Assembly (NCBI GenBank): GCA_040221055.1
Contig: JAVJVN010000014.1
Coordinates: 239,001-303,000 of the forward strand
Direction: 5' to 3'
Length of the DNA: 64,000 bases
Origin: Rhodothermales bacterium
GTDB taxonomy: Bacteria > Bacteroidota > Rhodothermia > Rhodothermales > UBA10348
This document shows positions 40,105-64,000 of this stretch, piece after piece (position 1 is the first letter of the stretch; every line of letters starts with the position of its first letter). The translations under genes were made by a program, and so were the position numbers. The notes under the pieces are model-generated. The model was not told where the DNA came from and ran no database searches. It saw only the letters and a program-made list of their open reading frames with translations.

Positions 40105-40144
40105 GGCGCTGACTTCACGGACGTGACAAATCCCTGACGACACC

Positions 40145-40176
40145 TGCCAATGCGCGCACTGGGGCTGCAAATGCGC
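40145..40176. promoter_or_regulatory. 21-bp-phased direct repeat, candidate AraC-type binding site
   Basis: TGCCAATGCGC (40145-40155) and TGCAAATGCGC (40166-40176) are direct repeats with one mismatch, starting exactly 21 bp apart. They precede the TSP3/T9SS protein start by 82 bp. Two-turn phasing is typical of AraC-family sites, and an AraC-type hybrid regulator is encoded just downstream at 42208. A matching arrangement, with different sequence, occurs at 56885-56915. Confidence 0.6.
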
Positions 40177-40257
40177 ATTTTATCGGGGTATCTAGTGCTC
40201 GTCCCGCCGGAATGGTGGGCCACTGAACTCTCCCCTCATTCAGCAGCAAGCACTACA

Positions 40258-42159
40258 ATGCGTTTCTTCCCCTCCATCATGGTCGCCGTATTCCTGGTAG
40301 CGGTCGGCGTGGCCCCAGCGACTGTTCATGCTCAATCGACTACCGGTGTCTATTGGCTGGATTCCGGGCCAGAGCGTGGTCCCTACAATGACCAGACGCT
40401 GCGCCACGGTCATTATTCGGCCAGTGACGTCTTCTCGAATTCGGTTTTCTTGAGCCTTCCGAACTACAACGTTCCGATGGGGCTCGCTGTTGATGCTGGC
40501 GAAGGCAAGGTCTATACCAATCACCGCAGCCTCTTTACCGGAATTATCACCATCCGGAAAATGAACCTCGACGGCTCTGGCCTGGAGACGCTTCACACCT
40601 TCCCGGGTGGGGCATACGGCCAAATGGAGTTCAATCCGGCTGACGGCAAGTTGTACATTTTCAACGGTGCCAGCTTCGCGAGGATGAATGCCACTTCTGC
40701 CGCCATTGCGGCTGGCGGAGGCGTGAACGTCGAGCAAATCCCTTTTCCAGCTGGTTATTCAGTCACGCGAGGAGATATTGACCTTGTCAACGGTACGCTG
40801 GTCGTGATGAATACGGCTGCCCCCGGGAACTGGCCGTTCGTAGCCATCGATTTTGACGGATCCAACCCGACCCCGCTGGGAGCTGTTTGCCCTCCACATA
40901 CCTGCTATCAGGGTTTTACGGTCGATGCCCGTTCCGAGAAGATCTATTACTCCCGCCGCGGACAAGGTGCTGACCCACTGGGCTACGTCTACGTCCAGAA
41001 TTATGACGGCACGGATAACGTCCAACTCTTCGGTCCTTCGGGAAGCAATCAGTACCTGAATGCGGTGAGTTTGGCCATCGATTTCGAGGACGACAGGCTG
41101 TACATGGGAGTCGGTCGTGAAGGATTTGGCGCATACATGAGTCGGGGCAAGCTGGACGGCAGCCAGTTCGAGCTCCAGTACAATACAGGAGGGCTTGACG
41201 CGGCACCTGTGTTCGTTGCCCTTGGCTCAGTCCCGAGCGGCGGCGGCGGTGGTGGCCCGGTCGATACCGACGGTGACGGCGTTCCGGACGACGAAGACGC
41301 TTTCCCGAACGATCCGACGGAATCGGCGGACACGGATGGTGACGGCGTTGGCGACAACGGTGACGCATTCCCGAACGACCCGACGGAATCGGTTGACACA
41401 GACGGCGACGGCGTTGGCGACAACGGTGACGCATTCCCGAACGATCCGACGGAATCGGCGGACACGGATGGTGACGGCGTTGGCGACAACGGTGACGCTT
41501 TCCCGAACGATCCGACGGAATCGGCGGACACGGATGGCGACTCGGTCGGTGACAATGGAGACCTTTGTGCGGTCACCGTATACGACACGATGGAGCTCAA
41601 CCCCAACCAGTGGGCGCTTCGAGAAGGGTCGACCAACTTCATTCAGGGAGTGAACCGGAAGGGCAAGTCGTCGGGTGGCTCCTACTCCATTACTGAGACA
41701 GGAGGCTGTTCCTGCTCGGACATCGTGGAGGCTGCTGGTCTTGGCCAGGGACACCTCAAGAAGGGTTGCTCGAACAGTGTCATGGCGGACTGGGCCGCGC
41801 ACGTGGCCAGCACCTTGGGCAAAGGCGGTACGCCGTCCGCACCGCTGAGCCAGCGTCTGGATGCGAACCAGGAGCCTGCCAACGGTGCGCTTCCGACGGA
41901 ATTCGTGCTGACCGGCAACTACCCGAACCCGTTCAATCCGCAGACCAGCATCCAATTCGGTCTGCCGGAAGCGGCCCACGTCACGCTCGCGGTCTATGAC
42001 CTCATGGGTCGTCGGGTGCGGGTCTTGATTGACGGCACGATGTCGGCCGGTATGCACCAGGCGAGCTTCGATGCCGGGTCTCTGCCGAGCGGGGCGTATC
42101 TGTATCAGCTCACGACGCCTGCCGGAAGCATCACCAAAACCATGATGCTGCTGAAATAA
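40258..42159 (+). CDS. T9SS cargo with YWTD-like propeller and TSP3 calcium repeats
   Basis: This 633-residue secreted protein has a signal peptide (MRFFPSIMVAVFLVAVGVAP), a propeller region to about residue 325 (VDAGEGKVYTNHRS, FNPADGKLYIFNG, IDFEDDRLYMGVG), four and a half 22-residue TSP3-like repeats at 336-435 (DTDGDGVGDNGDAFPNDPTE), a Cys-rich ~70-residue domain (TGGCSCSDIVEAAGLGQGHL, KKGCSNSVMADW) and a full T9SS type A tail (NYPNPFNPQTSIQFGLPEAA). The Asp-rich repeats should bind Ca2+ once outside the cell. The start at 40258 gives the signal peptide. Hybrid regulator 1 lies 48 bp downstream on the same strand. Confidence 0.9.
   Translation: MRFFPSIMVAVFLVAVGVAPATVHAQSTTGVYWLDSGPERGPYNDQTLRHGHYSASDVFSNSVFLSLPNYNVPMGLAVDAGEGKVYTNHRSLFTGIITIRKMNLDGSGLETLHTFPGGAYGQMEFNPADGKLYIFNGASFARMNATSAAIAAGGGVNVEQIPFPAGYSVTRGDIDLVNGTLVVMNTAAPGNWPFVAIDFDGSNPTPLGAVCPPHTCYQGFTVDARSEKIYYSRRGQGADPLGYVYVQNYDGTDNVQLFGPSGSNQYLNAVSLAIDFEDDRLYMGVGREGFGAYMSRGKLDGSQFELQYNTGGLDAAPVFVALGSVPSGGGGGGPVDTDGDGVPDDEDAFPNDPTESADTDGDGVGDNGDAFPNDPTESVDTDGDGVGDNGDAFPNDPTESADTDGDGVGDNGDAFPNDPTESADTDGDSVGDNGDLCAVTVYDTMELNPNQWALREGSTNFIQGVNRKGKSSGGSYSITETGGCSCSDIVEAAGLGQGHLKKGCSNSVMADWAAHVASTLGKGGTPSAPLSQRLDANQEPANGALPTEFVLTGNYPNPFNPQTSIQFGLPEAAHVTLAVYDLMGRRVRVLIDGTMSAGMHQASFDAGSLPSGAYLYQLTTPAGSITKTMMLLK
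41263..41562 (+). repeat. 66-bp tandem repeats (TSP3 coding)
   Basis: Copies begin at 41263, 41329, 41395 and 41461, each 66 bp, with a partial fifth from 41527. Copies 2-4 differ at only a handful of positions, so copy number could change by slippage or recombination in frame. Confidence 0.93.
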
Positions 42160-42207: not shown

Positions 42208-45200
42208 ATGCGTATTCCCGCACAGCATCTGCTTTCGACGTGCTTATTGTGGATCCTGGCCAGCCTGGCGCCCATCGGGCGCCAGGCTGGCGCACAGGAT
42301 ACCACGGCCTTCCACACGATTGGAACGGACGAGGGCTTGTCCCACAATACGGCAGTCTCCCTGGAAATCACCGCACGGGGCGAGGTCTGGGTCGGGACGC
42401 TTCGCGGGTTGAACCGGTACGAGGGCACGAGGGTCGTTTCCTACTTCTCGGTATCGAACGACTCCAGGAGCCTTCCCGCATTCCGGGTCGATGCCATCAA
42501 GGAAACGTCAGCGGGCGATCTGTGGGTAGGCCTGTCTGGCGGCTTTGCCAAATACAGTGCACAGACAAATGATTTTGATCGGTTCGAGCTCGATACTCCG
42601 TTTCCGCCCATCGTCCACGATATCGAGGAGGGTCCGGACGGCATCCTGTACCTGGCCACGTGGACCGACGGACTCATAAAGTTCGACCCCGCAACCGGCG
42701 CGTCCGAACGGGTCTTCAAGGTGCCGCACGCGCAGCTGGACGGTCCCACCCAGGACGGACTGACCATCCGGGAAATTACCTTCACGGATCAAGGGACGGC
42801 CTGGGTAAGCAGCTACACCGGGGTCTATACGTTCCATGCGGACTCGGGCACCCTCGGCCACCCTGCATGGCCAACCGCCACGCTGGATCGGCTTGCGCGT
42901 ATTCAATCCTTGTCTGTTCTGGACCTGGAGCAGGTCGTGCTTTTCGCGTCATTGAATGGCGTGGTAGCGGTCGACAAGGAAACCGGGCGGGCCGTCGATT
43001 ACCTCATTCACCCGGATCCCCGGAATGACTGGAACTACGTCGGGGACATGAAGCAGGCATCGGACGGCAGCATCTGGTTGGCGACGGGCGGCGGTGTGGC
43101 CCGCTGGGTCCTGAATGAATCCCGAATCGATCGACTTGTCCCAAGCTCCCAGACGGGTGCGCTGCTGGACACCGGGAGGACGTTCGCTTTGGAATTGGAT
43201 GACATCGGAGATGTCTGGGTCGGCACGTCGCGCGCCGGACTGCTGCAAATGGACCGGACATCCTACCCCGTTCCACGGGTCGAGACGGGGAATACGGAAG
43301 ACCGTTCGTTGCCGGACGGTCATGTCTGGGCGGCCGCAGCGGGGTCTCCAACCGAAAACGGTTTCTGGCTGGGTATGCCCGAGGCGTTTGGATTCTGGGA
43401 CGCACAAACGAATACGTTCCAGGAAACCCGGTTTGGCGGGCTCGGCGCATCGGGCGTCTCGGCCATTCATACGCAGGGTGACGGGACGTACATCCTGGCT
43501 ACACGACGCCACGGCGTATGCCGGTTCAACCCCGCCACGCGTGCGTGCGGATCCCTTTTCAAAACAGCAGGGACGATCTACGCCATTGCACGGACGCCGG
43601 ATGGCGATCTGTGGTTTGCCCTGTTCGGCCATTTGTACCGCTACACGCCAGAGACCGGCCTGCGCCGCGACTACATTGGCGCGCTGGGCGGATTGGGCTC
43701 GGCCGTGCCCTTGGTGATGGCCCTGCATGTGGACAAGAACGGCGTCCTGTGGGTGGGTATGGAATACGGTCTGGCGAAGTATGACGCTGCAAGCGACACA
43801 TTCGTGCCCGAAGCCACGCAGCAGGACCGGCTCGTGGTGTCGGGTATCCATGAGGCCGGGGACGGAAGGCTTTGGCTCTCGGGGAACGATATTTTCCTGT
43901 ACGATCCGGCAACCCGCACGCTGACACCCCGGTCGCTCCGCCCGGGAGAATTGTCAACCGGACAACTGACGGCCGCGGTTACCGACCTCCATGGGACGCT
44001 CTGGGTGGACATGGGCAGCTATTTATTGGCTCTCGAGGCGGATGGTGTCCGTGAGACCGGTCGCATTCCGCTGGCGACGGTCCGCCGGAATGTGGACTTC
44101 ACGACAAGCGCTGCCATTCGTGCGCCCGATGGTCGCGTCCTGTTCGGATACCAAGGTGGTTTCCACATCTTCGACCCCGAGTCGGACTACACGCCGAAGC
44201 GGGACAGCCGGGTATCGATCGTGTCTTACACGGCGAATGGACAGGAGCACCGGCTGCTGGGAGGAGAAACTGTCCACGTGGACCACGGGACGCGGGTCAT
44301 TTCCTTCACGTTTGCCACCACGGGTTACCTGCCGCCCTCAGAGCGCGCATTTGAAATACGCCTGGACGGATTCGAGTCGGAGTGGCGGGCAGTCCGGTCG
44401 TCCGACGTCACCTATACCAACCTCCCGCCGGGCCTCTTCACGCTTCATGTCCGGCGGATGGGCCTGATCCCGGGATCCGATGTGGCGGGAACTACGGTCA
44501 CAATACAAGTCGCGCCTCCATGGTGGAGTCGTCCATGGTTCATCTTGCTGGTCGCGGTGTCCGGAATTGCGCTTTTGGTTGGCGTTGTCAAATGGCGCGA
44601 GCGGGACCTGGTCCAGCGGGGCGACATGTTGAATGCACTTGTTGTGCAGCGAACCGCTGAACTGGCCGAAAAGGCCGACGAGTTGCAGCGGGCCAACGAA
44701 TTGAAGTCCCGGTTTTTCTCGAACGTCAGTCACGAGTTGAGGACGCCGCTTACCCTCATCAAAGGGTACCTGGAGGATGCGGAATCCACGGCACCCGATC
44801 CCCGGCTGCAGCGCGCCATCGGGCTGTCGGAGCGGCTCGATGCGCTCGTATCGCAACTGCTGGACCTGGCCCGCTCCGATGGCAAACGCCAGAAGCTGGA
44901 AGCGGCCGATGCGGACCTGGTGGCGTTCACGCATCGCATTGTATCGCATTTTTCGCATGCCGCGCGAAAGAAGGGCATCGACTTGACCTTCGAGCACGAT
45001 CAGGCGGCGCTGTGGTCCCGGTTCGATGCCATCAAAATGGACCAGATCCTGTCCAATCTCATCGGGAACGCACTGAAATTCACGTCGAGTGGTGGATCCA
45101 TCTGGGTCATTCTGAACGCGGTGGAGGAACGTACAGTGCGTTTGACGGTCGCCGACAGTGGTGAAGGCATACCGCCGACCCTGGTAGACCGGGTCTTTGA

Positions 45201-46158
45201 GCGGTTCTTCCAGGTGGATGACGAGCTGACGCGCACGCACGAGGGACTGGGGATCGGACTGGCGCTGACCCGCGATTTTGTGGAGCTTCACGGTGGTCGC
45301 ATATCCGTTCAGTCCGAAGTCGGCTCGGGTTCGGTCTTCACCGCCGAGTTCCCCCAAATGCTGCTGCACGAGGGGCTGGCCGCATCGCACGCCCTGTACC
45401 ACGATCTGTCCGAGTATGAACCGGGCCTGTCCGGTCCGAAAAAGAAATTGCTTGTGGTCGAAGACAATGCTGAACTGCGGGGCGTGCTTGCCCGGCAGTT
45501 GTCGGTGGACTTCGACGTCAGTACGGCTGCGGATGGTAGGGAGGGATGGTCGTTCATTCGTTCCAACGAGGTGGACCTGGTCCTTAGCGACGTCATGATG
45601 CCGGGCATGAGTGGGTTGGACTTGCTCAGGGAAGTCCGGGCGTCAGAAGCGCATGCCCACCTGCCCTTCGTCCTGCTCACGGCCCGATCGGGCGAGGATG
45701 CGCAGGTGGAAGGATTGACCGCACTCGCCGATGACTTTGTAGCCAAGCCGTACAGCTCACGCGTCCTGAAGGCCCGTTTGCTGAATCTGGCGCAGCGCGG
45801 CCGGGCCATTGCGCCAGCTGCGGCCGCGGCCGCCGCTGCCCAGCACCCCCTGTTGATTCAAATCCACGCGTACGTGCTTGAGCATATGGCAGACACCGAT
45901 GTATCCGTACAGGACGTGGCCGATGCCGTGTTCATGAGTCCGCGTACGTTCCAGCGTCACGTCAAGGAGATCACGGGGGAATCGGCGGCATCCCACATCC
46001 GGTCCGTTCGTCTGGAGCATGCCCGAGAGCTGCTGGAGGAGGGGCATCTGTCCTCGGTGTCGGAAGCGGCGCATCGTACGGGGTTTGCGAATGTATCGCA
46101 CTTCTCCAAAGTGTTCGAGGAGACGTACGGGTTGAACCCGAAATCGTACATGTCGTGA
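42208..46158 (+). CDS. Hybrid two-component regulator 1 (propeller, HisKA, REC, AraC-type HTH)
   Basis: This 1316-residue one-piece system senses outside and binds DNA inside. Order: signal peptide; Reg_prop propeller repeats to about 690 (GLSHNTAVSLEITARGEVWV, GDLWVGLSGGFAKY); Y_Y_Y domain about 705-752; membrane helix about 777-795; HisKA with His842 in NVSHELRTPLTLI; HATPase about 931-1051 (LIGNALKFTSSGG, GLGIGLALTRDFVELHGG); receiver with Asp1128 in SDVMMPG; an Ala-rich linker; AraC-type HTH about 1215-1315 (SVQDVADAVFMSPRTFQRHV). All catalytic residues are present. Relatives control polysaccharide use, but no SusC/D genes are near. The adjacent TSP3 cargo is the likely target. A 15-bp perfect hairpin lies in the signal-peptide codons. 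Confidence 0.95.
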   Translation: MRIPAQHLLSTCLLWILASLAPIGRQAGAQDTTAFHTIGTDEGLSHNTAVSLEITARGEVWVGTLRGLNRYEGTRVVSYFSVSNDSRSLPAFRVDAIKETSAGDLWVGLSGGFAKYSAQTNDFDRFELDTPFPPIVHDIEEGPDGILYLATWTDGLIKFDPATGASERVFKVPHAQLDGPTQDGLTIREITFTDQGTAWVSSYTGVYTFHADSGTLGHPAWPTATLDRLARIQSLSVLDLEQVVLFASLNGVVAVDKETGRAVDYLIHPDPRNDWNYVGDMKQASDGSIWLATGGGVARWVLNESRIDRLVPSSQTGALLDTGRTFALELDDIGDVWVGTSRAGLLQMDRTSYPVPRVETGNTEDRSLPDGHVWAAAAGSPTENGFWLGMPEAFGFWDAQTNTFQETRFGGLGASGVSAIHTQGDGTYILATRRHGVCRFNPATRACGSLFKTAGTIYAIARTPDGDLWFALFGHLYRYTPETGLRRDYIGALGGLGSAVPLVMALHVDKNGVLWVGMEYGLAKYDAASDTFVPEATQQDRLVVSGIHEAGDGRLWLSGNDIFLYDPATRTLTPRSLRPGELSTGQLTAAVTDLHGTLWVDMGSYLLALEADGVRETGRIPLATVRRNVDFTTSAAIRAPDGRVLFGYQGGFHIFDPESDYTPKRDSRVSIVSYTANGQEHRLLGGETVHVDHGTRVISFTFATTGYLPPSERAFEIRLDGFESEWRAVRSSDVTYTNLPPGLFTLHVRRMGLIPGSDVAGTTVTIQVAPPWWSRPWFILLVAVSGIALLVGVVKWRERDLVQRGDMLNALVVQRTAELAEKADELQRANELKSRFFSNVSHELRTPLTLIKGYLEDAESTAPDPRLQRAIGLSERLDALVSQLLDLARSDGKRQKLEAADADLVAFTHRIVSHFSHAARKKGIDLTFEHDQAALWSRFDAIKMDQILSNLIGNALKFTSSGGSIWVILNAVEERTVRLTVADSGEGIPPTLVDRVFERFFQVDDELTRTHEGLGIGLALTRDFVELHGGRISVQSEVGSGSVFTAEFPQMLLHEGLAASHALYHDLSEYEPGLSGPKKKLLVVEDNAELRGVLARQLSVDFDVSTAADGREGWSFIRSNEVDLVLSDVMMPGMSGLDLLREVRASEAHAHLPFVLLTARSGEDAQVEGLTALADDFVAKPYSSRVLKARLLNLAQRGRAIAPAAAAAAAAQHPLLIQIHAYVLEHMADTDVSVQDVADAVFMSPRTFQRHVKEITGESAASHIRSVRLEHARELLEEGHLSSVSEAAHRTGFANVSHFSKVFEETYGLNPKSYMS
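42259..42291. repeat. Perfect 15-bp inverted repeat in the signal-peptide codons of hybrid regulator 1
   Basis: GCCAGCCTGGCGCCC (42259-42273) pairs exactly with 42277-42291 across an ATC loop, encoding residues 18-28. In the mRNA it would be a very stable hairpin starting about 50 nt after the start codon and could slow early elongation. Confidence 0.88.
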
Positions 46159-52704: not shown

Positions 52705-52727
52705 GGAGATCGTGTAACCGCGTACAG

Positions 52728-52820
52728 GTGGACCTGTCAGGTCTGGCCAGTGGGGTCTATATTTACAGGCTCAGTGCTGGCGCTTCAGTCCTGACTCGAA
52801 CCTTGCAATTGCTGAAATAG
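52728..52820 (+). pseudogene. Orphan T9SS type A sorting-tail remnant
   Basis: Reading 52728-52820 in one frame gives VDLSGLASGVYIYRLSAGAS and then VLTRTLQLLK followed by a TAG stop, which is the last 30 residues of a type A T9SS tail. No start codon or upstream body in this frame continues it; the preceding DUF5916 gene ends at 52704 in a different frame. It is most likely the remains of a deleted secreted-protein gene. It ends 56 bp before hybrid regulator 2. Confidence 0.8.
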
Positions 52821-52876: not shown

Positions 52877-55800
52877 GTGAGAACACACGCCGCGCTGCTG
52901 TGCATGGTGTTCGTTGCCGCCTTCGCGGCGGGAACGGCATCGGCGCGCCAGGTTCCTGTGTTCGAGCGGTTGTCCGTGACAGATGGGTTGTCGCATCCCA
53001 AAATCAACGGCCTTGCGTTGGATGAACAGGGGTTCCTTTGGATAGCCACCGGGGGCGGACTTGATCTGTACGACGGAATCCGTGTTCGCCATCTTGCAAC
53101 GGGAAAGCCGCCTGGTGGGTATTCCTCGTCGGTCGGGCCGCTTCTGCTTGGCCGCGAAGGGATGATGTTCGCAGGGACGGAATGGGGGATCATGATGATC
53201 GACCCTTCAACGTTCACGTCAACCAGATTTCCGTATTCGTTTCCCAGCGGCGGCGCGCCCGTGGCGCTTGCAGAAGACGCCAACGGGGGAATCTGGGTTG
53301 CCGCGTGGACGGACGGATTGCAGATCCTGGATCCGGATTCGGGGGTGTTCACGCGCAAAATGTCCGACTCGCTGCAGGCCCTGGACGTGGTACGTGGACA
53401 GGATGACTCCATGTGGATTGCGACGGCGACCGGCCTGGCCAGGCTCATGCCGGATGCCGATGAATTCACGTTCATGCGGTACGATTCAGAAAGGCCGCAT
53501 TCCATCCGGTCGGACCGGGTCCGCCGAATAACGGTGTCGGACGATGGCCGGATATGGGTTGGAACGGAGTCAGGTCTGGACGTACTTGATCCACGGAGCG
53601 GGGTGTTTTCACCTGTGGATGTTGGAACCCGGTCGGACAAGATGATCGCCGATCTGACGTGGGACGTCTCCGGCACGCTCTGGATTGGCTACGATGACGC
53701 ATTGGTTTCGCTGGACGCGGACTCGGGTGACTATCATGTGTTTGAACATGCCCCGGGTGACCCTGAACGTATGGTGGCCGGTCGGATTACGGCCATCCAG
53801 ACCCTTTCGGGCGGAGGGCTGGCGGTCGGCTCCGATAGATCGGGGTTGAGTCTGTCGTCACTGAATGCAGCTGCCTTGACCCGGGTGTCGAAGACGAGTG
53901 ACGCAAGGTGGGAATTCCTCGGCTTGGTGGGCGCATTCTCTGAACTTCCGGATGGCAATGTGCTGGTCGGCGGAAGCGAAGGATTGTTCAAATACCGCCC
54001 GGCCGACGGGTCGGTCGAAATGCTGGCAGACGTAGTAACATTGACCGGGGGATCATCCATCAACGTGCTGCACGTCACGCGCGACGGGCACGTATGGATG
54101 GGCACGGAGGGCGCGGGGTTCGGACAGTTGGACATGGTTTCCCTGACCTTCAACTCGATTCCCTCTACCCGTCGGGACGAAGCCTTCGTCTATGATATCC
54201 AGGAAGATCCGGACGGCATTATCTGGGCCGGCACGTTCGGCGGCTTGATTTCCGCCGCGTCACACGGGGAACGATTGGATGCGTATCGCCATGATGACGG
54301 ATCCGGTCTGGCCGCCAACTGGGTGTCCCAGTTGGACTTGGACGCAAACGGCAATCTGTTGATAGGCACAAATCTTGGATTGAGCATTCGTGGCCGGACA
54401 TCGGGTACGTTTCGTCACATTGGATACGGTGAGGGCGTGACGCTTCGGAATGCAGGTATTGTCAGCGGGTTGTGGGCGACGCCAGAGGGCATCTTCCTGG
54501 CGACGGGAGGCGCGGGACTGATCGAATTGAACCCATCCGATTGGACGGGGCGACAGTGGGACGTCGATGCCGAGCTCTCCGCGGTGATCGAAGACCGGAA
54601 CGGGTACATTTGGCTCCAGAGCCCTTCCGGATTCACGCGTCTGGACCGGTCATCCGGAGAAACCATCCGGATCGCGTCAGACGTGGGTGTCATGCCCTTT
54701 GATTTTGCATTGGGTGCGTATACCGCCACGACGGGTGGCGATCTGCTTTTTGGAACACAGAACGGATTTTTTGTCCTCGACCCTGAACAATTGGCCGGCA
54801 ACAATGACGTTCCGCGAGCCAGCCTGGCCGGTGTAACCGTACGGGGTGCGCATGTGCGTACGGAAAATGGTCAGTTGGTCGCTCCGGTTGCCAGCGGAGA
54901 CATGCCCGTTGTTTTCCAGTATGCTCCCGACATCTATCCAGGCAACAAGCCCTTTGCGCTCGTCTACCGTCGTGCCGATGCTTCGGAGCCCTGGATTCGT
55001 CTGGAGGGTCCAGTCGGAGATCTGACATTCAATTCGTTGCCCACAGGAGAATTGGTCTATGAAGCGGCATTTCAATCCGTTGACGGCCGGGTCGGGGTCC
55101 CGGCCACCATCGCACTTACGGTCCTTCCGGTGTGGTACCGGAGTTGGTGGTTCACCACACTGTCGTTCTTCGGCGTGGCCCTGGCCGGATCCGGCGCAGT
55201 GGCGTACCGTGTACGAAGCATCAAACGTGACAATATCCGCCTGGAGCAGGTCGTAATAGATCGGACGGCGGAACTGGAGGACAAGCGCCTGCAGCTGGCA
55301 GAGCGGAACGACCAGTTGGCCGCATTGGACGAAATGAAGTCCCGGTTTTTCATCAATATCAGCCATGACTTCAGGACACCTCTTACGTTGATCCTCGGAC
55401 CCCTTCAGGATTTGATCGACGCATCCGAAGGGGAAGAAAAGCAGTCCATCGAACGCGCGTTGCGGAACGGTCAGCGCCTGTTGCGACTCATCAATCAGGT
55501 CATGGACCTCGCCAGACTGGAGGCCGGAGCATTCACACTTGAGGTCGTGCCGACGGACGTGCGTGACCTGGCGCGCAAGACGCTGGGGGCGTTTGAGAGT
55601 ATTGGTGCGCTGCGCCGCATCCAGACCGGGCTGTCAGGAGGTGACGAGCCCTTGGTGGTCGGCGTAGACCCGGCACAGGTGGAGGTTATTCTCCTGAATC
55701 TGCTTTCAAATGCCTTCAAGTATACCGAACCGGGTGGAACGGTATGGGTGGACGTGCGTGCGGTCCATGAGGACGGCGTGTCGATCTCAGTCACGGATTC

Positions 55801-56863
55801 AGGGATCGGCATACCCGAAGAGCATTTGCCGTATCTGTTTGATCGGTACTACCGGGTACGAGCGCCCATGGGAGACCTGCTGCCCGGGTCGGGCGTCGGC
55901 TTGGCGTTGGTGCATGAGTTGGTTGAATTGCACCAGGGCAGCATTTCCGTTGTCAGTCGCGTGGGTGAGGGGAGTGGGACGACGTTCACGATTACCCTTC
56001 CGTCCCTGCCTTGGGAGCACGGTCCGAGACCTTCCGCGCGTCCCGAGTACGAGGGGTATTACGATGTTTTCGGCGCTGCCAGTGACGCTCGGGATGTAGC
56101 TCATGAAGGCGATCGTCCGACGGTCCTGGTCGTGGAGGATCACGGCGACTTGCGGGCCTACATCCGTGAGCATCTGGATACTGCATATGCCGTCGCTGAG
56201 GCTGCGGACGGTGAGGATGGACTTGCCTTGGCCATTGAACTGGTGCCTGATTTGATCATTTCGGACATCATGATGCCGCGCAAAGACGGACTGACCCTGG
56301 TTCGCGAGCTCCGGAGCGATACACGAACCAGCCACATTCCGGTCATCCTGCTCACCGCGCGCGCCGATGTGGAGAGTCACATTGAGGGTGTGGAAACCGG
56401 AGCCGATTCGTTTCTGCCAAAACCGTTCAACGCGCGCGTCCTGAAAGCGCAGATCGCTTCCTTGCTGGAGCGTCGAAACCTGCTCTGGAATGCGTACAGG
56501 CAAGGAACGCTGCACGAACCTGACGACCCCGTCGTTTCCGCCCTGGATACGGCATTGGTGGAGCAGATTTCGTCTTTCGTGGCGTCGCGGTTGTCCGACC
56601 CCGATTTCAGCGTGGATGAACTGGCCGAGTATTGCGGGATGAGTTCGCGACAGCTCTCCAGGAAAATGGCGGTCGTGTTGGATACGTCGCCTGGTTCCTA
56701 CATCCGGACGCAACGAATGCGCGAGGCTCAGCAGTTGTTGTCGGACCCGAATTCATCTGTAAAGGAGGTATCGTTCCGTGTCGGATTCCGGAGCGAGACG
56801 CATTTCTCGAAGCAGTTCAAAGAAGCGTACGGTGTGACGCCAGGCAACTGGTCCCGGCGTTGA
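52877..56863 (+). CDS. Hybrid two-component regulator 2 (propeller, HisKA, REC, AraC-type HTH)
   Basis: This 1328-residue regulator has the same plan as the one at 42208. A GTG start (52877) leads to a signal peptide (LLCMVFVAAFAAGTASARQ), Reg_prop repeats (GLSHPKINGLALDEQGFLWI), Y_Y_Y about 682-750, a membrane helix about 755-775, HisKA with His830 in NISHDFRTPLTLILG (SHDFRTP rather than SHELRTP), HATPase about 925-1045, a receiver with Asp1130 in ISDIMMPRKDG, and AraC-type HTH about 1238-1328 (FSVDELAEYCGMSSRQLSRK). It is complete. The giant T9SS protein follows after about 330 bp, with a 21-bp-phased direct repeat between them, so it is the likely target. Confidence 0.95.
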   Translation: MRTHAALLCMVFVAAFAAGTASARQVPVFERLSVTDGLSHPKINGLALDEQGFLWIATGGGLDLYDGIRVRHLATGKPPGGYSSSVGPLLLGREGMMFAGTEWGIMMIDPSTFTSTRFPYSFPSGGAPVALAEDANGGIWVAAWTDGLQILDPDSGVFTRKMSDSLQALDVVRGQDDSMWIATATGLARLMPDADEFTFMRYDSERPHSIRSDRVRRITVSDDGRIWVGTESGLDVLDPRSGVFSPVDVGTRSDKMIADLTWDVSGTLWIGYDDALVSLDADSGDYHVFEHAPGDPERMVAGRITAIQTLSGGGLAVGSDRSGLSLSSLNAAALTRVSKTSDARWEFLGLVGAFSELPDGNVLVGGSEGLFKYRPADGSVEMLADVVTLTGGSSINVLHVTRDGHVWMGTEGAGFGQLDMVSLTFNSIPSTRRDEAFVYDIQEDPDGIIWAGTFGGLISAASHGERLDAYRHDDGSGLAANWVSQLDLDANGNLLIGTNLGLSIRGRTSGTFRHIGYGEGVTLRNAGIVSGLWATPEGIFLATGGAGLIELNPSDWTGRQWDVDAELSAVIEDRNGYIWLQSPSGFTRLDRSSGETIRIASDVGVMPFDFALGAYTATTGGDLLFGTQNGFFVLDPEQLAGNNDVPRASLAGVTVRGAHVRTENGQLVAPVASGDMPVVFQYAPDIYPGNKPFALVYRRADASEPWIRLEGPVGDLTFNSLPTGELVYEAAFQSVDGRVGVPATIALTVLPVWYRSWWFTTLSFFGVALAGSGAVAYRVRSIKRDNIRLEQVVIDRTAELEDKRLQLAERNDQLAALDEMKSRFFINISHDFRTPLTLILGPLQDLIDASEGEEKQSIERALRNGQRLLRLINQVMDLARLEAGAFTLEVVPTDVRDLARKTLGAFESIGALRRIQTGLSGGDEPLVVGVDPAQVEVILLNLLSNAFKYTEPGGTVWVDVRAVHEDGVSISVTDSGIGIPEEHLPYLFDRYYRVRAPMGDLLPGSGVGLALVHELVELHQGSISVVSRVGEGSGTTFTITLPSLPWEHGPRPSARPEYEGYYDVFGAASDARDVAHEGDRPTVLVVEDHGDLRAYIREHLDTAYAVAEAADGEDGLALAIELVPDLIISDIMMPRKDGLTLVRELRSDTRTSHIPVILLTARADVESHIEGVETGADSFLPKPFNARVLKAQIASLLERRNLLWNAYRQGTLHEPDDPVVSALDTALVEQISSFVASRLSDPDFSVDELAEYCGMSSRQLSRKMAVVLDTSPGSYIRTQRMREAQQLLSDPNSSVKEVSFRVGFRSETHFSKQFKEAYGVTPGNWSRR

Positions 56864-56884
56864 AACGCGCATTTGGAGCCAATC

Positions 56885-56915
56885 TGTCCGGATACCATAG
56901 GCATTTGTCCGGATA
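56885..56915. promoter_or_regulatory. 21-bp-phased direct repeat, candidate AraC-type binding site
   Basis: TGTCCGGATA occurs perfectly at 56885-56894 and 56906-56915, starting 21 bp apart. It sits just after hybrid regulator 2 and about 280-310 bp before the giant gene, or 50-80 bp before the small coupled frame at 56965. This spacing is as seen upstream of the TSP3 protein at 40145, but the sequence differs, as expected for a different regulator. Confidence 0.6.
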
Positions 56916-56964
56916 GCAGAGGCCTTCAGCCGGCGGAGAGGAGACCTGGGGGAGTAGACTATGC

Positions 56965-57201
56965 ATGCCGTTTCCCGGCACCCGCATTTGCGGTTCACCC
57001 CCTCTGGAAATTCTGTTGGCTTCCGACGAAAACGAACCCCGAAAGAACGAATCTGCTCCGGTATCGGAAGCCGTTCGATTGGAACTGGAAGCATTGGCCG
57101 CCGACCTGGCGGAGCAGAACGAGAGGGAGAATCGCAAGACATCGTCCAGCGACGAAGCTGGATCCGAAGAATTGCCTCCAACCAATCGATCCCCTCGATG
57201 A
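56965..57201 (+). CDS. Possible small protein coupled to the giant T9SS gene
   Basis: This 78-residue reading frame has a Glu/Ala-rich helical middle (VSEAVRLELEALAADLAEQN) and a charged Ser/Arg tail, with no recognised family. Its stop overlaps the start of the giant gene as ATGA, the coupling seen for many real genes in this window. It could instead be chance. If it is not coding, the stretch 56916-57197 holds only the 5' leader of the giant gene. Confidence 0.4.
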   Translation: MPFPGTRICGSPPLEILLASDENEPRKNESAPVSEAVRLELEALAADLAEQNERENRKTSSSDEAGSEELPPTNRSPR

Positions 57202-60200
57202 AACGCTTTCCCCTCCTCATCGCCCTGCTGTTTTCTGCCACTTTGCTGATCGCATGGGCCGGTCCTGGCGACCCCGGCTCCCTCGAGGTGACCAATCGTG
57301 ATGGAGAATCGCTTCACCTTGGCGACGCGGGGACGTCTATTGTCAACGGCGTCTATCTCCCGAATGGGACAGCGAATGGGTACCCTAAATACCAGAAGGA
57401 CAACTCAATTTTCGTGTACAAGGTGGCCAATGGGCGCTGGTACATATCGATGGTGGACGGCAGTGAGGTCGAAAGCGATGTCTATTACTACAGCCGTCCG
57501 GCCAGCACAGTGGATTTCGTCACAGACGGACGTGTATTCTTGGATTGGGTGGGTTGGGCCAATGGAGCTAACCCGGCTCCCGAACGGTGGTTGGACGGCT
57601 TTGGGCAGGACGTCATATTGGTGAACGATGAAGTTTCATCCTACGTTAACGAGGACGACGAAGGCAGTCGCAACCTAACCGTATTGATGCCGTCTCCGTC
57701 AAGCAACGATGTGACGGTGAACCTCAGCTATGCAGGCACCGCGACCGGCGGCGGCGTCGATTATACCGCTCCGGCATCGGTCATCATTCCGGCCGGCCAA
57801 AAGACGGCGACCGTCACGATCACGGCGGTGGACGATGCTATCGAAGACACGGATGAAACCATCGACGTCAGTATCGGCTCCGTCACAAATGGGACGTTCC
57901 AGGCGCCGAACACACAGACACTGACCATATACGATGATGACGCCCCGTTTCCCACGGTATTGATTGCGTCTGGTGCTGCTGTCGGCGGCACGGGAGTGAC
58001 GGTGAACGGAACGTACACGCAGGTTGGGACCCGCAATGGTGTTCCGGAATACTACCGTCCCGATCCCGGTATCTACCTTTTCATGGATGCGGATGAATTT
58101 TGGTACTTCAACACTGAGGACGGCGATTACGATGCGGGTAGATCCCTGTACTCGACCGATGACAATTTCCGGCGCCCCTACCTGGAGGACGATCCTGCAC
58201 CCGACAATTGGGTACCCGGAGACGTGTCTCCCGGGGCGCCCGGACCAACCATGTCGATCGGCGCGACGCCGCCACCGGCACCCGTCCTGGTCGAGTGCTT
58301 GATCAACGGGAGTTTTGAACTGCCAGCCGAAAACGACTACATCGGGTCACCGTCCGAAGATACCGTTCCCGGGTGGATGACGGTCAATTTCGACTATTTT
58401 GAGTATTGGCAAGTGCCATTGGCACCGTCCGTACCTGATGGTGTCCAAGTCATTGAACTGTATTCCGGCGGCCAGGAGACCATCTATCAAGATTTCCAGA
58501 CCACGCCGGGTGAGGTGCTGTCGTATTCGTTCTACCATCGCCAACGGGACTCCGCCCAGGAATTGGCCAATGTTGCATTTGGTGCACCGGGTGCCACAAC
58601 TGTTGTAGGCACCACAGAGGGCAGCACGACGTCGGCGTGGACGGAATTCACGGGGACCTACACGGTGCCGAGCGGCCAGACGCTTACCCGATTTGAAATC
58701 CAGGGTGCCGTCGCGTCTGTCAACTATAGTGGAACGGGAGGCAATCTCATTGATGCGGTGTCTGTTCAGGGCACATCCTGTCCGCCACCGGCAGCTGCTT
58801 CGCCCACCATCTGGTTTACCACATCGTCATCGTCCCTGGATGGCATGCCAGAAGGTTCATTCGGTGAAGAAGAAGGCACGATGACGCTCAGTGCCACGGT
58901 TCTGGACAACGAGCCGGTGGTTTCCGACGTCACCGTCGACTTCACGTTTGCCGACGTGACGGCGACCCGCGGCGAAGTGTACGACTACTCCGCGCCTATG
59001 AGTGTCACGATTCCGGCCGGTGAGTACTACGCAGAACTGGTCGTGTCGCTCTTCGACGATGATGTGTATGAAGGGGACGAGACCTTTACGGTTCAGATGG
59101 GATCGGGTAGCGGCTATGACGTAGACGATGACACGCCGCAGACCATCACCATCGTGGACGATGAAACTTCCCCGGTCATCTCGTTGGCCGCAACGCCATT
59201 GACCGTGATCGAAGGGAATAAAAAGGGGGGCACTGTGGAGTTGACGGTATCCCTGTCCGGCAAAAGCGCGTCGGTAACGGGGGTGGAGCTCAATTACGGA
59301 GGAACGGCAACCAAATCTGACTTCACCGGCGCAGGTGTCATCAAGATTGGGGCCGGAGCGCTGTCGGCCGTGACGACCTTGCAGATTGTGGGTGATCTGC
59401 TCGATGAGCCGGATGAGACGATCGTCGTGGCGTTGGCCTCACCCAGAGGCGGCACGATTTCGCCGGACGCCAGTTTGAATACGCAGACCATCACCATCAC
59501 GGACGATGATGATGCGCCGGTCGCTACACTGACGCTGGACCCGCCTGGAAAGGACGAGGGACTCCGCATATTCACGATCGATGAAAATGGTGGCGAGACC
59601 ACAGGAAAGGTGAAGGTCATAGCCACGCTCGACGCGCCCAGTGGATTCAATATCCAGATTCCATTGACCTTTCCGGACTTGCAGGAGGGTGGACTGACAC
59701 TCGCCGTACCCGTTGTGGAGTGTGGAGCCTCAAAGAACTGCTCACCGGGAGCCGGCGACTACAGCATCTCACAGAACTTCATTTACATCCCGGCCGGACA
59801 GACCGCTGGTGCGGTCACCATTCTGGCGATTGACAACGCCGACTATGCGGGCGACCGGAATGCGTACGTCGTGGTCGGATCGCCATTGAGCAATGTAACC
59901 GCCAAGGCCTCTCCTGACGACCGTGTTACGGTGACCGTGAAGGAGGATGAAGCGTTCCCATTGAGCGCGAACACCTATTCGCAGGTCATCCAGGAGAATG
60001 CCACCCTCGTCATTGATCTGCTGACGATTGCTGCCGGCGCCACGAGCGTCACTGAGGTCACGAATCCGAACAACGGAGGCACGGCAACCCTGGATGTGGC
60101 GACGGGCAAGGTCACGTATACGCCGAAGGCCAATTACGTGGGAACGGAGAAATTCAGCTACACCGCATCCGGTGGCGGTCAGAACCGTTCCGGCGATGTG

Positions 60201-63200
60201 TACATCACCATTACGGCAGTTCCGGACAATCCCGTTGCTGTCGACGTGGCCCTGACCGGCTCGGACTACAAGGAAGACACCCCGTTCCAGGTGGCCCTTA
60301 CAGAAATGGCGACCGATCCCGACGTCGGCGATGTGCTCACGTTCACCTTCGAAAGCCAACCGGCGAACGCCACGGTGACCGTTGATGGAAATGTGATCAA
60401 GGTGGTTCCGACGGCAAACGCGAACGGTGCCGATCAATTCACGTTCTCGGCAAAGGATCAGACGGGACTTGCATCGGAGACGAAAACCGTGTCATGGACG
60501 CTTGCTGCGGTGTATGACACCCCGACGTTTGCGAATGGCTCGACCTTCGATGTTGAGCTGGGCAAGAGTCGTGCATTGAATATCAATGACATCCTGAATG
60601 GGGTGGATGGTCCGTCCACGGTGTACCGGATTTACGCGATCACGAGCCCTGATCCCGGGCCGAAGCCGTGGGTGGCTGGAATCGATGTCACAATGAAGAC
60701 CACGAATGGAAATGGTCTTGTGATGGACAAGGATCAGAAGACACTGACCTATACCGCCTCATCGGACTTTGAGGGATCTGAGGAGGTCACGGCTATTGTC
60801 GTCAACACCCTCCCGGGTCCGTTTGTACTGAATGATATCAACAATCCGTTGAAGTCGTTCGGTGCGGACTTCGTCACGCTGACTTTCAAGGTCGTCTCGC
60901 CGTCGACGGTTGTCGCACTGACGGCCCCTGACGGAGACCCGGCCCAGTATCCGATCTACCGGACGGACGGTGGAACCGGATCTCCGAATACGCGGACATA
61001 CGCGCTGGATGCCGGCTCGGCCGTGGGCCTTGAAACCACGGTTGTCCTCGAATCCACCGGTTCGGCGGTACTCGGCACCGACTTCAGGATCACGGACATG
61101 AATGGCGCCGAAACGACGACGTTCAAGATTGCCGCGGGCTCGAAAAGTGCATCGTTCAAGATTCTGGCACTGCCGGGGACTGAGTCCCGTGTCATTGGAC
61201 TGTCCATCAAGTCCGTCACACCGGGCTCGGCCTCGACGACGGCCAAAACGCTGACTATTCCGCTTGTTGCCGGGAAGGCTCCGACGGTTGAGATCGCCGA
61301 ATCGAATTCCTCGTCCACCAGCATTCACGAGGGCGGTCCGCTGACCGACGGCGGTGCCGGAACGTCATTGAAATGGGTTGGACTGCGTTTGGCCGATGGT
61401 GCCACCGCTGCGGCGGACATCCCGGTTACCGTTTCATTTTCCGGAGCGACGCAAGGTGTGGACTTTGAAGTCCGTTACCACAAGAACAGGGTCGAAGGTT
61501 CAGTCGGAGTCCTTTCGAATGGTTCCATGTTCGAAATCGGGAAAGGCCTGAAGGATGCGTGGTTGGAAATCCGTGCACTGGACGATGAGATGTACGAAGG
61601 CGACGAGACGCTGATGATTACGATCGTTTCGGCCGTGGGCGCGCAGCCCGCCATGTCCTTCACTTCACTCGCCATCAAGATTGTGGATAATGACGTGGCT
61701 TCGATCGAGACCTTCGATGACTACGTGTCTGTACAGATGGAACTCCAGTGCCCCGACTGTCCATTCCCGACCCCGGACATTGGCGAGGTGGTGATTGACC
61801 CCGCTGACCTGCTGGCCAACGACTCGCAGGCCGGTCGAAGTGTCAACATGCTGCAGGTGACCTCGTTGACCAGAGGCACGGATCGATCATCAAGTGTGGA
61901 TGTGGACATCGTGATTGGCAAGGAAGGGAGCACGTATCGGGTTCGCGTGGAAAGGGGCCCTGGTGGCGAGTTTGGTACGCCTGTGCTTGACTACCGGGTG
62001 ATTGGCACGGAAGGTGCAGCTACGTTCCCGTTCAATGGCACAGAGGCTGATAAATCAGCGTGGTATACGGCGAATGCTGAATTGTGGGCAACGGGCCACG
62101 TGGTAATCGAAGAAGGCGTAAGGTCGAATCGCGCGACGGTTAGTGTCACCCAGACCGGAGCCTACCAGAACCAGCCGATTCAGCTTGAGTCGCCGCTAAA
62201 CACAACGCTTGAAGCCGTGCAGAGCACGACCAATCCGTCTCCCAAGCCGCTTCCTGCGGGCGTGGAGTCGCCCGTCGGATTCCTGCGATTCAATATCACC
62301 AACGTTCAGAACGGTGCCGCGCGGGTCGCAGTGACACTTCCACCCGGCGCTACGGTGTCGGAGTATTGGAAATACGGTCCTCGCGTGGGAGCCAATGTTG
62401 AATGTCCTGCCGCCGCCGCATCTGCCGCCAATAGCGCCTGTGAGAAGGGGAAGGAAGCCAACTGGTATAAATGGGACTACGACGAGGCCAAGGGTTACGG
62501 CGCAAGGCAGGAGTCAATCCCAGGCGGCAAAGTACTCGCCTTGTACTTCAAGGATGGCCAGCTCGGCGACTTCGACATGGAAGTCAACGGCGTCATCGTT
62601 GACCCGGGTGTGCCGGTATTCACGACCAATGTCGCTCCCGTCGTCGTATTGGACAGCGCAGTCGTTGTGGAAGACAACGCGGTCGATATCGACTTCCTGA
62701 CCAATGATTCAGACGCTGATGGCGATGCGTTGGTCTATGCCATTACAACCGATCCTGCCAATGGTACATGGTCCGATAACGGTGACGGCACGGGTACCTA
62801 CACACCGAACGCCGACTTCTTCGGCACGGACTCATTCACGTACACGATTGACGATGGCTACGCCAACGCTGAAGTTGGTACAGTGACTATCGAGGTGACC
62901 GGCACGCCGGACCTTCCGATTGCCATTGATGATGCCGCAACGACCGCTTCGGGCGTCAAGGTGTCGGTGAATGTCTTCGCCAACGACTACGACCCGGACG
63001 GAGACGAGCCGTTCTACCTGTCGGCCATCAGCAATCCAGCGAACGGTGTGGCGGCTTTCATGTCGGATGGAACGGTGACCTACACGCCGAACACCGGCTT
63101 TGTGGGCCAGGACACGATAACGTATTCCATCACGGACGGCGTATCGGGCATCTTTGCGCAGGCTACAGTGTCGATCACGGTAACCGGTACCGCGGCAGGC

Positions 63201-64000
63201 CCCGTGGCGTCTGCTGATGTATCCACGACCGCCGAGGAAACGGCGGTCAATGTGGATGTATTGGCGAACGACATCAATCCGCAGGGAAATGCCCTGGCAG
63301 TCGCGTCGTTCACGCAGGGCGCCAACGGTACGGTCACGGCAGGAGAGGGCGGAACGCTCGTCTACACGCCGGCGGCTGACTTCAACGGCACGGACACGTT
63401 TACCTACACGGTCACGGATGGCGGAGTCACGAGCGGCGCGGTCACGGTTACCATTTCCGTTACGGCGGTGAACGATGCACCGGTCTTTGAGACCGGCGCT
63501 GCCATATCCGGTACGGAAGGTGGGGTCGTGATTGGCGGCGCGGTGCATCCAGAAGCATCTGAAGCCCAATATCAGGTGACGTTCTCTGGAACTGCCAGCG
63601 ACGTGGACGACGCGGAGCTGACGTACAGCTACCAGTTGGCCTCGCGGACAGACTTCACGGAAGTGCTCCTGACGGCACCCGCATCGGCCGAGGGAGCGTC
63701 CATTCCCTGGACGGACATCCTGGATGCGCTCGCCGCAGCCAATATGGTGCCCGGAGCCGAGATCACGATCGCCCAGCGCATGGTGGTGACGGATACCGGA
63801 GGACTTTCCGCACGCACGGAAGCCCAGGAAATCACGTTCATCCGCGGATTCATAACGGCCAACGGAGAGATCGGGGAGTTGCCGACGGAATACTTCCTTG
63901 ATGGCAACTACCCGAATCCATTCAATCCAGTGACGACCATTCGTTTTGGATTACCCGCATCGGGCGATGTCAGCGTGGTGGTCTACGATTTAATGGGTCG
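57198..64000 (+). CDS. Giant multidomain T9SS surface protein (3' end beyond window)
   Basis: At least 2267 residues are open from the ATG at 57198 to the edge. After a signal peptide (FPLLIALLFSATLLIAWAGP) come a ~100-residue module (about 35-141), a Calx-beta domain (about 148-251), a second copy of the module (about 255-348), a CBM4/9-like domain with NGSFELPAEN (about 365-531), further Calx-beta-type domains to about 920, cadherin/tandem-95-like domains to about 1105, more Calx-beta-like units to about 1501, a choice-of-anchor U domain with GFLRFNITNVQNGAARVAVT (about 1688-1808), four tandem-95/cadherin-like domains (SDADGDALVYAIT, ADFNGTDTFTYTVTDG), and the T9SS tail from about 2227 (NYPNPFNPVTTIRFGLPASG). 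Only about 45 residues are missing. An adhesin-like calcium-stiffened surface protein is inferred. Confidence 0.9.
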   Translation, partial: MKRFPLLIALLFSATLLIAWAGPGDPGSLEVTNRDGESLHLGDAGTSIVNGVYLPNGTANGYPKYQKDNSIFVYKVANGRWYISMVDGSEVESDVYYYSRPASTVDFVTDGRVFLDWVGWANGANPAPERWLDGFGQDVILVNDEVSSYVNEDDEGSRNLTVLMPSPSSNDVTVNLSYAGTATGGGVDYTAPASVIIPAGQKTATVTITAVDDAIEDTDETIDVSIGSVTNGTFQAPNTQTLTIYDDDAPFPTVLIASGAAVGGTGVTVNGTYTQVGTRNGVPEYYRPDPGIYLFMDADEFWYFNTEDGDYDAGRSLYSTDDNFRRPYLEDDPAPDNWVPGDVSPGAPGPTMSIGATPPPAPVLVECLINGSFELPAENDYIGSPSEDTVPGWMTVNFDYFEYWQVPLAPSVPDGVQVIELYSGGQETIYQDFQTTPGEVLSYSFYHRQRDSAQELANVAFGAPGATTVVGTTEGSTTSAWTEFTGTYTVPSGQTLTRFEIQGAVASVNYSGTGGNLIDAVSVQGTSCPPPAAASPTIWFTTSSSSLDGMPEGSFGEEEGTMTLSATVLDNEPVVSDVTVDFTFADVTATRGEVYDYSAPMSVTIPAGEYYAELVVSLFDDDVYEGDETFTVQMGSGSGYDVDDDTPQTITIVDDETSPVISLAATPLTVIEGNKKGGTVELTVSLSGKSASVTGVELNYGGTATKSDFTGAGVIKIGAGALSAVTTLQIVGDLLDEPDETIVVALASPRGGTISPDASLNTQTITITDDDDAPVATLTLDPPGKDEGLRIFTIDENGGETTGKVKVIATLDAPSGFNIQIPLTFPDLQEGGLTLAVPVVECGASKNCSPGAGDYSISQNFIYIPAGQTAGAVTILAIDNADYAGDRNAYVVVGSPLSNVTAKASPDDRVTVTVKEDEAFPLSANTYSQVIQENATLVIDLLTIAAGATSVTEVTNPNNGGTATLDVATGKVTYTPKANYVGTEKFSYTASGGGQNRSGDVYITITAVPDNPVAVDVALTGSDYKEDTPFQVALTEMATDPDVGDVLTFTFESQPANATVTVDGNVIKVVPTANANGADQFTFSAKDQTGLASETKTVSWTLAAVYDTPTFANGSTFDVELGKSRALNINDILNGVDGPSTVYRIYAITSPDPGPKPWVAGIDVTMKTTNGNGLVMDKDQKTLTYTASSDFEGSEEVTAIVVNTLPGPFVLNDINNPLKSFGADFVTLTFKVVSPSTVVALTAPDGDPAQYPIYRTDGGTGSPNTRTYALDAGSAVGLETTVVLESTGSAVLGTDFRITDMNGAETTTFKIAAGSKSASFKILALPGTESRVIGLSIKSVTPGSASTTAKTLTIPLVAGKAPTVEIAESNSSSTSIHEGGPLTDGGAGTSLKWVGLRLADGATAAADIPVTVSFSGATQGVDFEVRYHKNRVEGSVGVLSNGSMFEIGKGLKDAWLEIRALDDEMYEGDETLMITIVSAVGAQPAMSFTSLAIKIVDNDVASIETFDDYVSVQMELQCPDCPFPTPDIGEVVIDPADLLANDSQAGRSVNMLQVTSLTRGTDRSSSVDVDIVIGKEGSTYRVRVERGPGGEFGTPVLDYRVIGTEGAATFPFNGTEADKSAWYTANAELWATGHVVIEEGVRSNRATVSVTQTGAYQNQPIQLESPLNTTLEAVQSTTNPSPKPLPAGVESPVGFLRFNITNVQNGAARVAVTLPPGATVSEYWKYGPRVGANVECPAAAASAANSACEKGKEANWYKWDYDEAKGYGARQESIPGGKVLALYFKDGQLGDFDMEVNGVIVDPGVPVFTTNVAPVVVLDSAVVVEDNAVDIDFLTNDSDADGDALVYAITTDPANGTWSDNGDGTGTYTPNADFFGTDSFTYTIDDGYANAEVGTVTIEVTGTPDLPIAIDDAATTASGVKVSVNVFANDYDPDGDEPFYLSAISNPANGVAAFMSDGTVTYTPNTGFVGQDTITYSITDGVSGIFAQATVSITVTGTAAGPVASADVSTTAEETAVNVDVLANDINPQGNALAVASFTQGANGTVTAGEGGTLVYTPAADFNGTDTFTYTVTDGGVTSGAVTVTISVTAVNDAPVFETGAAISGTEGGVVIGGAVHPEASEAQYQVTFSGTASDVDDAELTYSYQLASRTDFTEVLLTAPASAEGASIPWTDILDALAAANMVPGAEITIAQRMVVTDTGGLSARTEAQEITFIRGFITANGEIGELPTEYFLDGNYPNPFNPVTTIRFGLPASGDVSVVVYDLMG

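Follow-up and report, generated by a model that had tools for sequence, protein, structure and literature searches.

In the stretch of 64,000 nucleotides analysed here (the window), a direct repeat located between a hybrid two-component regulator (HTCS2) and a giant T9SS cargo gene is probably the operator through which HTCS2 activates that downstream gene, a prediction well supported by geometry and comparison. An earlier note on this DNA had reported a perfect repeat with 21-bp spacing between the two genes, and this observation is correct and significant: TGTCCGGATA was found without mismatch at 56885-56894 and again at 56906-56915, the starts being 21 bp apart, and the two exact copies form the core of a longer tandem pair (ATCTGTCCGGATACCATAGGC / ATTTGTCCGGATAGCAGAGGC, 56882-56923) identical at 18 of 21 positions. 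The features of this locus are the following.

52722..52820, +, apparent T9SS C-terminal tail remnant from another gene (...GLASGVYIYRLSAGASVLTRTLQLLK, stop), recognised by inspection
52877..56863, +, HTCS2, hybrid two-component regulator, with Pfam matches over cut-off
56882..56902, +, predicted operator unit 1, core half-site TGTCCGGATA at 56885-56894
56903..56923, +, predicted operator unit 2, core half-site TGTCCGGATA at 56906-56915, 21 bp after unit 1
56927..56947, +, candidate third half-site, degenerate (CAGCCGG) and in 21-bp phase with units 1 and 2; weak from the sequence by itself
56955..56960, +, -10-like box TAGACT, with the box form TAnnnT picked once sister loci had been inspected
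57198..64000, +, giant T9SS cargo gene, running past the window to C14:303148; signal peptide by inspection, domain matches

The repeat and its flanking genes

The pair at 56882-56923 is the top 21-bp-offset repeat of the 64-kb window, the runner-up 21-mer elsewhere reaching 15/21. When the intergenic sequence of the window was shuffled with an order-1 Markov model, a score of at least 15 was obtained at offset 21 in none of 60 sets and at any offset from 12 to 45 in 4 of 60. Perfect 10-mer pairs at offsets of 10 to 44 occur at several other places within the window, and since such pairs are not rare there, a 10-mer pair by itself is weak evidence. The genome (3.32 Mb in 22 contigs, 61% GC) was scanned with the pair at up to three mismatches, which returned three matches, namely the exact focal site and two sites with three mismatches. 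The regulon search with the full focal pair thus gave nothing besides the focal site within two mismatches in this genome, and the scan for rival pairs that the earlier note had proposed revealed no competitor at that level. The focal core begins 22 bp past the last base of the HTCS2 gene and the repeat ends 283 bp upstream of the most likely start of the giant gene, the ATG at 57198, which was chosen from the signal peptide by inspection. An HTCS operator is expected to be a direct repeat whose half-sites lie about 21 bp apart close to the regulator, and the focal repeat has this form.

It was verified that HTCS2 carries Reg_prop (propeller sensor), HisKA, HATPase_c, Response_reg and HTH_18 (AraC) domains, all over Pfam cut-offs, and it belongs to the HTCS class, in which a propeller sensor, a histidine kinase, a receiver and an AraC-type HTH are joined in one protein. 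A Y_Y_Y domain between propeller and membrane is common in this class; it was reported in HTCS1, the other regulator of the window, and none was reported for HTCS2 (E 0.001). Over their best segments, Bacteroides matches of HTCS2 are 24-35% identical to it. Family, order and named-genome searches, with five candidates scored per genome at the order level, found no HTCS2 ortholog and gave distant relatives of which the best full-length ones are 28-33% identical, so that the focal site has no footprint of its own.

The giant protein contains Calx-beta and cadherin-like/Ig repeats and ends in a C-terminal sorting domain (PF18962, 39.2 bits, C14:302909-303133), and the genome holds one SprA_N match (286.4 bits) and 72 T9SS-tail matches, 62 of them marked over cut-off. 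With a sorting domain in the protein and a T9SS marker in the genome, the giant gene is a T9SS cargo gene. One of its modules (58251-58787, 182 positions) is 50% identical to one in the T9SS protein beside the HTCS1 ortholog of genome G002 and weakly resembles DUF642 (23 bits, under cut-off). The orphan tail remnant just before HTCS2 suggests the loss or replacement of a former cargo gene at this place.

Downstream of the repeat, the TAGACT box begins 70 nt after the start of the first perfect half-site, 49 nt after that of the second and 28 nt after that of the degenerate third, the 49 nt being equal to 28 plus 21. CAGCCGG at 56927 keeps four of the seven core bases (CCGG alone), and a half-site at this position would overlap the -35 region. 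A consensus scanner for sigma-70 promoters found none between 56700 and 57300, and TAnnnT boxes occur in the gaps at a density of 0.0071 per position (114 of 16010).

The leader also contains an open reading frame (56965-57201), which was considered as a coupled small gene and rejected, given that no coding signal was detected (codon log-odds of 0.008 per codon, with 0.048 in another frame). Its third-position GC is 0.56 versus 0.68 in the neighbours, it has no Pfam match, and its ATG would fall at the predicted transcript start. The 78-codon product would be acidic, and its stop overlaps the giant-gene ATG (ATGA).

The 21-bp offset at other HTCS loci

Seven HTH_18 matches were found in this genome, five of them in reading frames of HTCS size: HTCS1, HTCS2, C11, C14b and C14c, the last three named after their contigs. 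The earlier note had suggested looking across the genome for HTCS genes next to T9SS cargo, and a T9SS-tail gene does lie within two genes of the regulator at all five loci; the giant gene directly follows HTCS2, and at C14c a small receiver gene, recognised by eye, stands between the repeat and the T9SS gene. Repeat scores at the 21-bp offset in the flanking gaps were 17 for pair 2 (HTCS2 and the giant gene), 10 for pair 1 (HTCS1 and its T9SS gene; at 40144), 10 for C11, 13 for C14b and 12 for C14c. Against mononucleotide shuffles, offsets 20-22 gave p values of 0.000-0.010 at the five loci, each being the best per locus among 13 segments scored in this genome. The half-sites vary from locus to locus. 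It had been claimed that both regulator/surface-protein pairs of the window share the 21-bp geometry with different half-sites, and this is borne out (TGCCAATGCGC / TGCAAATGCGC versus TGTCCGGATA); however, the picture of just two such pairs was too narrow, as five loci each combine a repeat with a nearby T9SS gene.

The features of pair 1 are the following.

40124..40175, +, predicted operator of pair 1, three tandem half-sites 21 bp apart
40189..40194, +, -10-like box TATCTA, which follows the three half-sites of pair 1 by 65/44/23 nt
40258..42159, +, T9SS cargo gene 1, with Por_Secre_tail; likely start at 40258
42208..46158, +, HTCS1, hybrid two-component regulator, with domain matches

The three tandem half-sites of pair 1 read TGACAAATCC (40124), TGCCAATGCG (40145) and TGCAAATGCG (40166), the TGCCAATGCGC / TGCAAATGCGC pair being found at 40145 and 40166, 21 bp apart, and a search of this genome with this pair matched its own site alone. 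HTCS1 orthologs are present in G002, G003, G008 and G017 (57, 55, 40 and 39% identical, respectively). In all three regions scored upstream of the ortholog T9SS genes (G002, G003 and G008; 341-513 bp), GCCA is paired at a spacing of exactly 21 bp, compared with at most two GCCA pairs altogether at the other spacings from 8 to 45 in the same regions, the motif having been picked after their inspection. G017 was left out of this count and inspected by eye alone because its HTCS lies at a contig edge. The pair 1 region of the window has no exact GCCA pair at 21 bp since its flanking half-sites read GCAA and GACA. At the G002 ortholog, the plain repeat score was null in three of three segments (p 0.24-0.92), and its GCCA pair was noticed by comparison only. 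The distances from half-sites to the TAnnnT box are 64/43 in G002, G003 and G008 and 65/44/23 in the window. A 21-bp repeat upstream of orthologous putative target genes was seen for the HTCS1 orthologs and for C14b and its ortholog in G003, the searches having given no ortholog of HTCS2.

Other observations were made around this pair. A further repeat at a 22-bp offset (GCCAGCCTGGCGCCCA / GCCAGGCTGGCGCACA, 42259-42296) falls within the start of the HTCS1 gene and is probably coding. A gene pair encoding a VapB antitoxin (61.7 bits) and a VapC-like PIN-domain protein (26 bits) directly follows HTCS1 at 46248-46789, and a gene at 48446-50407 (-) fuses cytochrome c domains with an FTR1 iron permease.

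The 21-bp offset was also counted in relatives, in a first set of 51 loci (five from this genome) with 49 regulator-like ORFs, 40 of which have an AraC-type end, and in 27 held-out loci, which exclude this genome and include a few from genomes also represented in the first set. Counts were filtered by leaving out 11 ORFs without an AraC-type end (9 of 49 in the first set and 2 of 29 in the held-out set). Among the 70 first-set gaps touching the 40 regulators, a score of at least 9 was reached at offset 21 in seven (three in this genome, four in others) and at offset 22 in three, the remaining offsets having a mean of 0.90 and a maximum of 2. Without this genome, offset 21 was found at this score in 4 of 60 gaps versus 0.87 (p 0.012), and at a score of at least 10 in two versus 0.48 (p 0.085). 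In first-set gaps far from HTCS genes, offsets that are multiples of three, 21 included, were also frequent, which probably reflects coding sequence missed by the simple gene caller; the held-out set was therefore taken. In its 50 gaps touching 27 AraC-type regulators, seven had offset 21 at a score of at least 9 (Poisson 7e-6), compared with a mean of 0.68 and a maximum of 3 for the other offsets and a mean of 1.09 for multiples of three, and 43 of the 50 had no 21-bp repeat at this score. At a score of at least 10, offset 21 was observed in five gaps versus a mean of 0.23 (Poisson 4e-6), and the unfiltered 52 gaps gave the same seven and five.

As for the neighbouring genes, a T9SS-tail gene was found within two called ORFs of 14 of the 40 first-set AraC-type HTCS; adding the HTCS1 and HTCS2 of this genome, whose tails fall outside the extracted locus, gives 16 of 40 with such a gene and 24 of 40 without. 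Individual loci also drew attention: in L114 (G047), a perfect 17-bp repeat (TGAGACAAAGGGGCAAG, about 965-1002) stands at 21 bp beside another HTCS and is a clean candidate operator, and in L226 (G082), two similar TGACA-GCTCAG arrays with 21-bp spacing occupy neighbouring gaps beside one HTCS, at 7440 and 7908.

Half-sites, recognition helices and competing readings

Exact TGTCCGG pairs with start spacings of 11-41 number 14 in this genome; two of them are spaced at 21 bp and both adjoin HTCS genes, one being the focal site and the other that of C14b. This census indicates that HTCS1 and HTCS2 differ in half-site and that HTCS2 and C14b share the core. The earlier note had proposed that HTCS1 and HTCS2 are paralogs with diverged specificity, which agrees with their HTH parts (37% identical) and their differing recognition helices (SPRTFQRHV versus SSRQLSRKM). 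The accompanying suggestion that the two pairs may be independent units is open to doubt, since the TGTCCGG core at 21 bp is also found at C14b, a third regulator whose recognition helix is similar to that of HTCS2, so that cross-binding is possible.

C14b and its G003 ortholog are 43% identical over 1384 aligned positions, and both loci retain two TGTCCG copies spaced at 21 bp as well as a lipoprotein-like gene downstream, the spacer having diverged. In G001, the order is an HTCS, a 21-bp TGTCCT pair and a gene that extends for 793 codons or more, with DUF642 and a cadherin-like match below threshold; the contig end cuts this gene, so that any sorting tail would lie outside the sequence. In C14b, G003 and G001, the distance from the second half-site to the start of a TAnnnT box is exactly 28 nt; C14b and G003 are not independent, and the box form was settled after the first loci. 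Other TGTCC-like repeats are off this register (boxes at 50 and 55 in L214, none in L212 and L221), and a search for it in C11 and C14c gave no convincing result.

A link between the first recognition helix and the half-site is suggestive. R-Q is found in this helix in 28 of 67 regulators with an AraC-type end, and an R-Q-x-x-R helix is common to HTCS2, C14b and the remaining two HTCS that have TGTCCG-N15-TGTCCG without mismatch. Within 500 bp, 4 of 28 RQ regulators have an exact TGTCCG pair at 21 bp versus none of 39 others (p 0.027; before filtering, 4/28 versus 0/48, p 0.016), the idea having come from two of these four positive cases; 24 of the 28 lack such a pair. With one mismatch, the counts are 5/28 versus 1/39 (p 0.042), and with two the association fades (10/28 versus 8/39, p 0.135). 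Before filtering, no exact TGTCCG pair was found in the RQ group at 12 other spacings from 15 to 27. Additionally, L113 and L117 share both the helix core QSRASLYRRF and the half-site AGCGTCTCA. Pairs of the looser TGTCCG 6-mer abound in the 27 family genomes, which makes that search too unspecific, and among the matches listed several 21-bp pairs sit away from known HTCS loci.

The similarity between HTCS2 and C14b raises an alternative in which the focal repeat is bound mainly by the C14b regulator, or by both, the giant gene then belonging to a shared regulon. The TGTCCGG core is also that of the putative 21-bp operator of C14b, whose recognition helix (STRQFRRKL) resembles that of HTCS2 (SSRQLSRKM); nevertheless, 22 bp separate the repeat from the end of HTCS2, where a cognate site would be likely, and the outer parts of the units differ (CA.AGGC in the focal repeat versus GT.GCGG in the C14b operator), as would be expected if two different second helices read them. 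Binding of this kind is considered unlikely. Since TCCGGA is self-complementary, the two copies could instead form an RNA hairpin ending the HTCS2 message, as a terminator or stability element, and it was found that a 49-nt stretch folds into a stem (z -2.15) and that the whole 334-nt leader folds as well (z -3.46), with L212 (z -1.89) and C11 (-1.38) intermediate. However, the sister 21-bp repeats of C14b, G003, G001 and pair 1 show no such trend (z -0.49, 1.39, 0.52 and -0.16), and a hairpin would not demand a 21-bp spacing. A hairpin or terminator was rejected and is regarded as very unlikely, as these four sister repeats fold no better than shuffles and neither a terminator-like site nor an Rfam match (up to E 1) was found.

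It is even less probable that the repeat is a neutral 21-bp tandem duplication or a product of chance, devoid of function. Identity at 18 of 21 positions over exactly two units is what slippage gives, and perfect 10-mer pairs exist at other offsets in the window, but the same offset recurs with unrelated sequences at the five HTCS loci and at held-out loci, and a -10-like box stands at a fixed distance. The preferred explanation for the focal repeat is thus an operator of HTCS2.

A proposed switch and its relation to known systems

In such an operator, the HTCS2 sensor would detect a ligand outside the inner membrane and its histidine kinase would hand a phosphate to its own receiver, whereupon the AraC-type end, with two helix-turn-helix motifs per monomer, may dock as a head-to-tail dimer. 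The dimer would occupy both half-sites, which face the same side of the DNA at a distance of two helix turns (21 bp), and the degenerate third half-site, in register, would end at the -35 region; because it reaches this region, the bound array could contact RNA polymerase. Transcription would then begin at the TAGACT box, leading to production of the giant T9SS-exported surface protein. We infer activation rather than repression, and the surface role of the protein is likewise predicted.

The 21-bp geometry follows a published HTCS rule and is not a peculiarity of this window, since Ravcheev et al. 2013 (PMC3878776) describe 16 predicted Bacteroides HTCS motifs as direct repeats with an average distance of 21 bp. 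The same paper proposes a dimer on one DNA face and reports paralogs with different half-sites. The regulator class, the direct-repeat operator, the 21-bp distance and the differing half-sites of paralogs are thus shared with the Bacteroides operators described there; those were sought at SusC/SusD polysaccharide-use loci, whereas the neighbours here are T9SS surface-protein and lipoprotein-like genes. The half-site TGTCCGG distinguishes the present case from the Bacteroides operators as described there, and both the three-site array and the -10 register are additions of the present analysis. The lineage of this bacterium looks distant from Bacteroides, judging by its 61% GC and by the 24-35% identity of the Bacteroides matches of HTCS2. 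According to PMC3404733, ChIP-seq of the HTCS BT1754 showed the highest enrichment at the 3' region of its own gene, a position that matches that of the focal repeat, just 3' of the HTCS2 gene. The word "motif" is absent from the part of PMC6874557 that was available. In PorXY-SigP of Porphyromonas gingivalis, two-component control is also connected with T9SS, but PorXY is reported to control secretion-machine genes, while here each regulator is near a cargo gene. A literature search on HTCS with T9SS and on HTCS direct-repeat operators, whose coverage largely excluded subscription papers, found no operator paper outside Bacteroides polysaccharide loci.

A comparable layout exists in a simpler regulator. 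At araBAD, AraC binds I1-I2, a tandem of half-sites spaced by about 21 bp, of which the proximal one lies over the -35 region. AraC is a one-component cytoplasmic sugar sensor that acts with looping; HTCS proteins are alike in the tandem half-site layout but, unlike AraC, are membrane-bound and controlled by phosphorylation.

The HTCS operator kind is already known, and the fresh elements are the T9SS-cargo targets and the promoter register. Through the analysis, a repeat noticed by eye becomes a candidate operator that can be tested, together with a predicted promoter, and the 21-bp HTCS rule is extended to T9SS surface-protein targets. More tentatively, HTCS regulators here might have been redeployed from polysaccharide uptake to switches of one regulator and one surface protein, with 21-bp-phased arrays of two or three half-sites, a fixed -10 distance and a helix-readable half-site. 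Under this redeployment, an S-x-R-Q-x-x-R first recognition helix would give TGTCCG, and since the half-site would be partly readable from that helix, regulons would, if this is true, be predictable from protein sequence. If the helix link and the 28-nt register hold, the targets of uncharacterised HTCS would become predictable from sequence, and the way in which membrane-bound sensors choose surface proteins would become testable.
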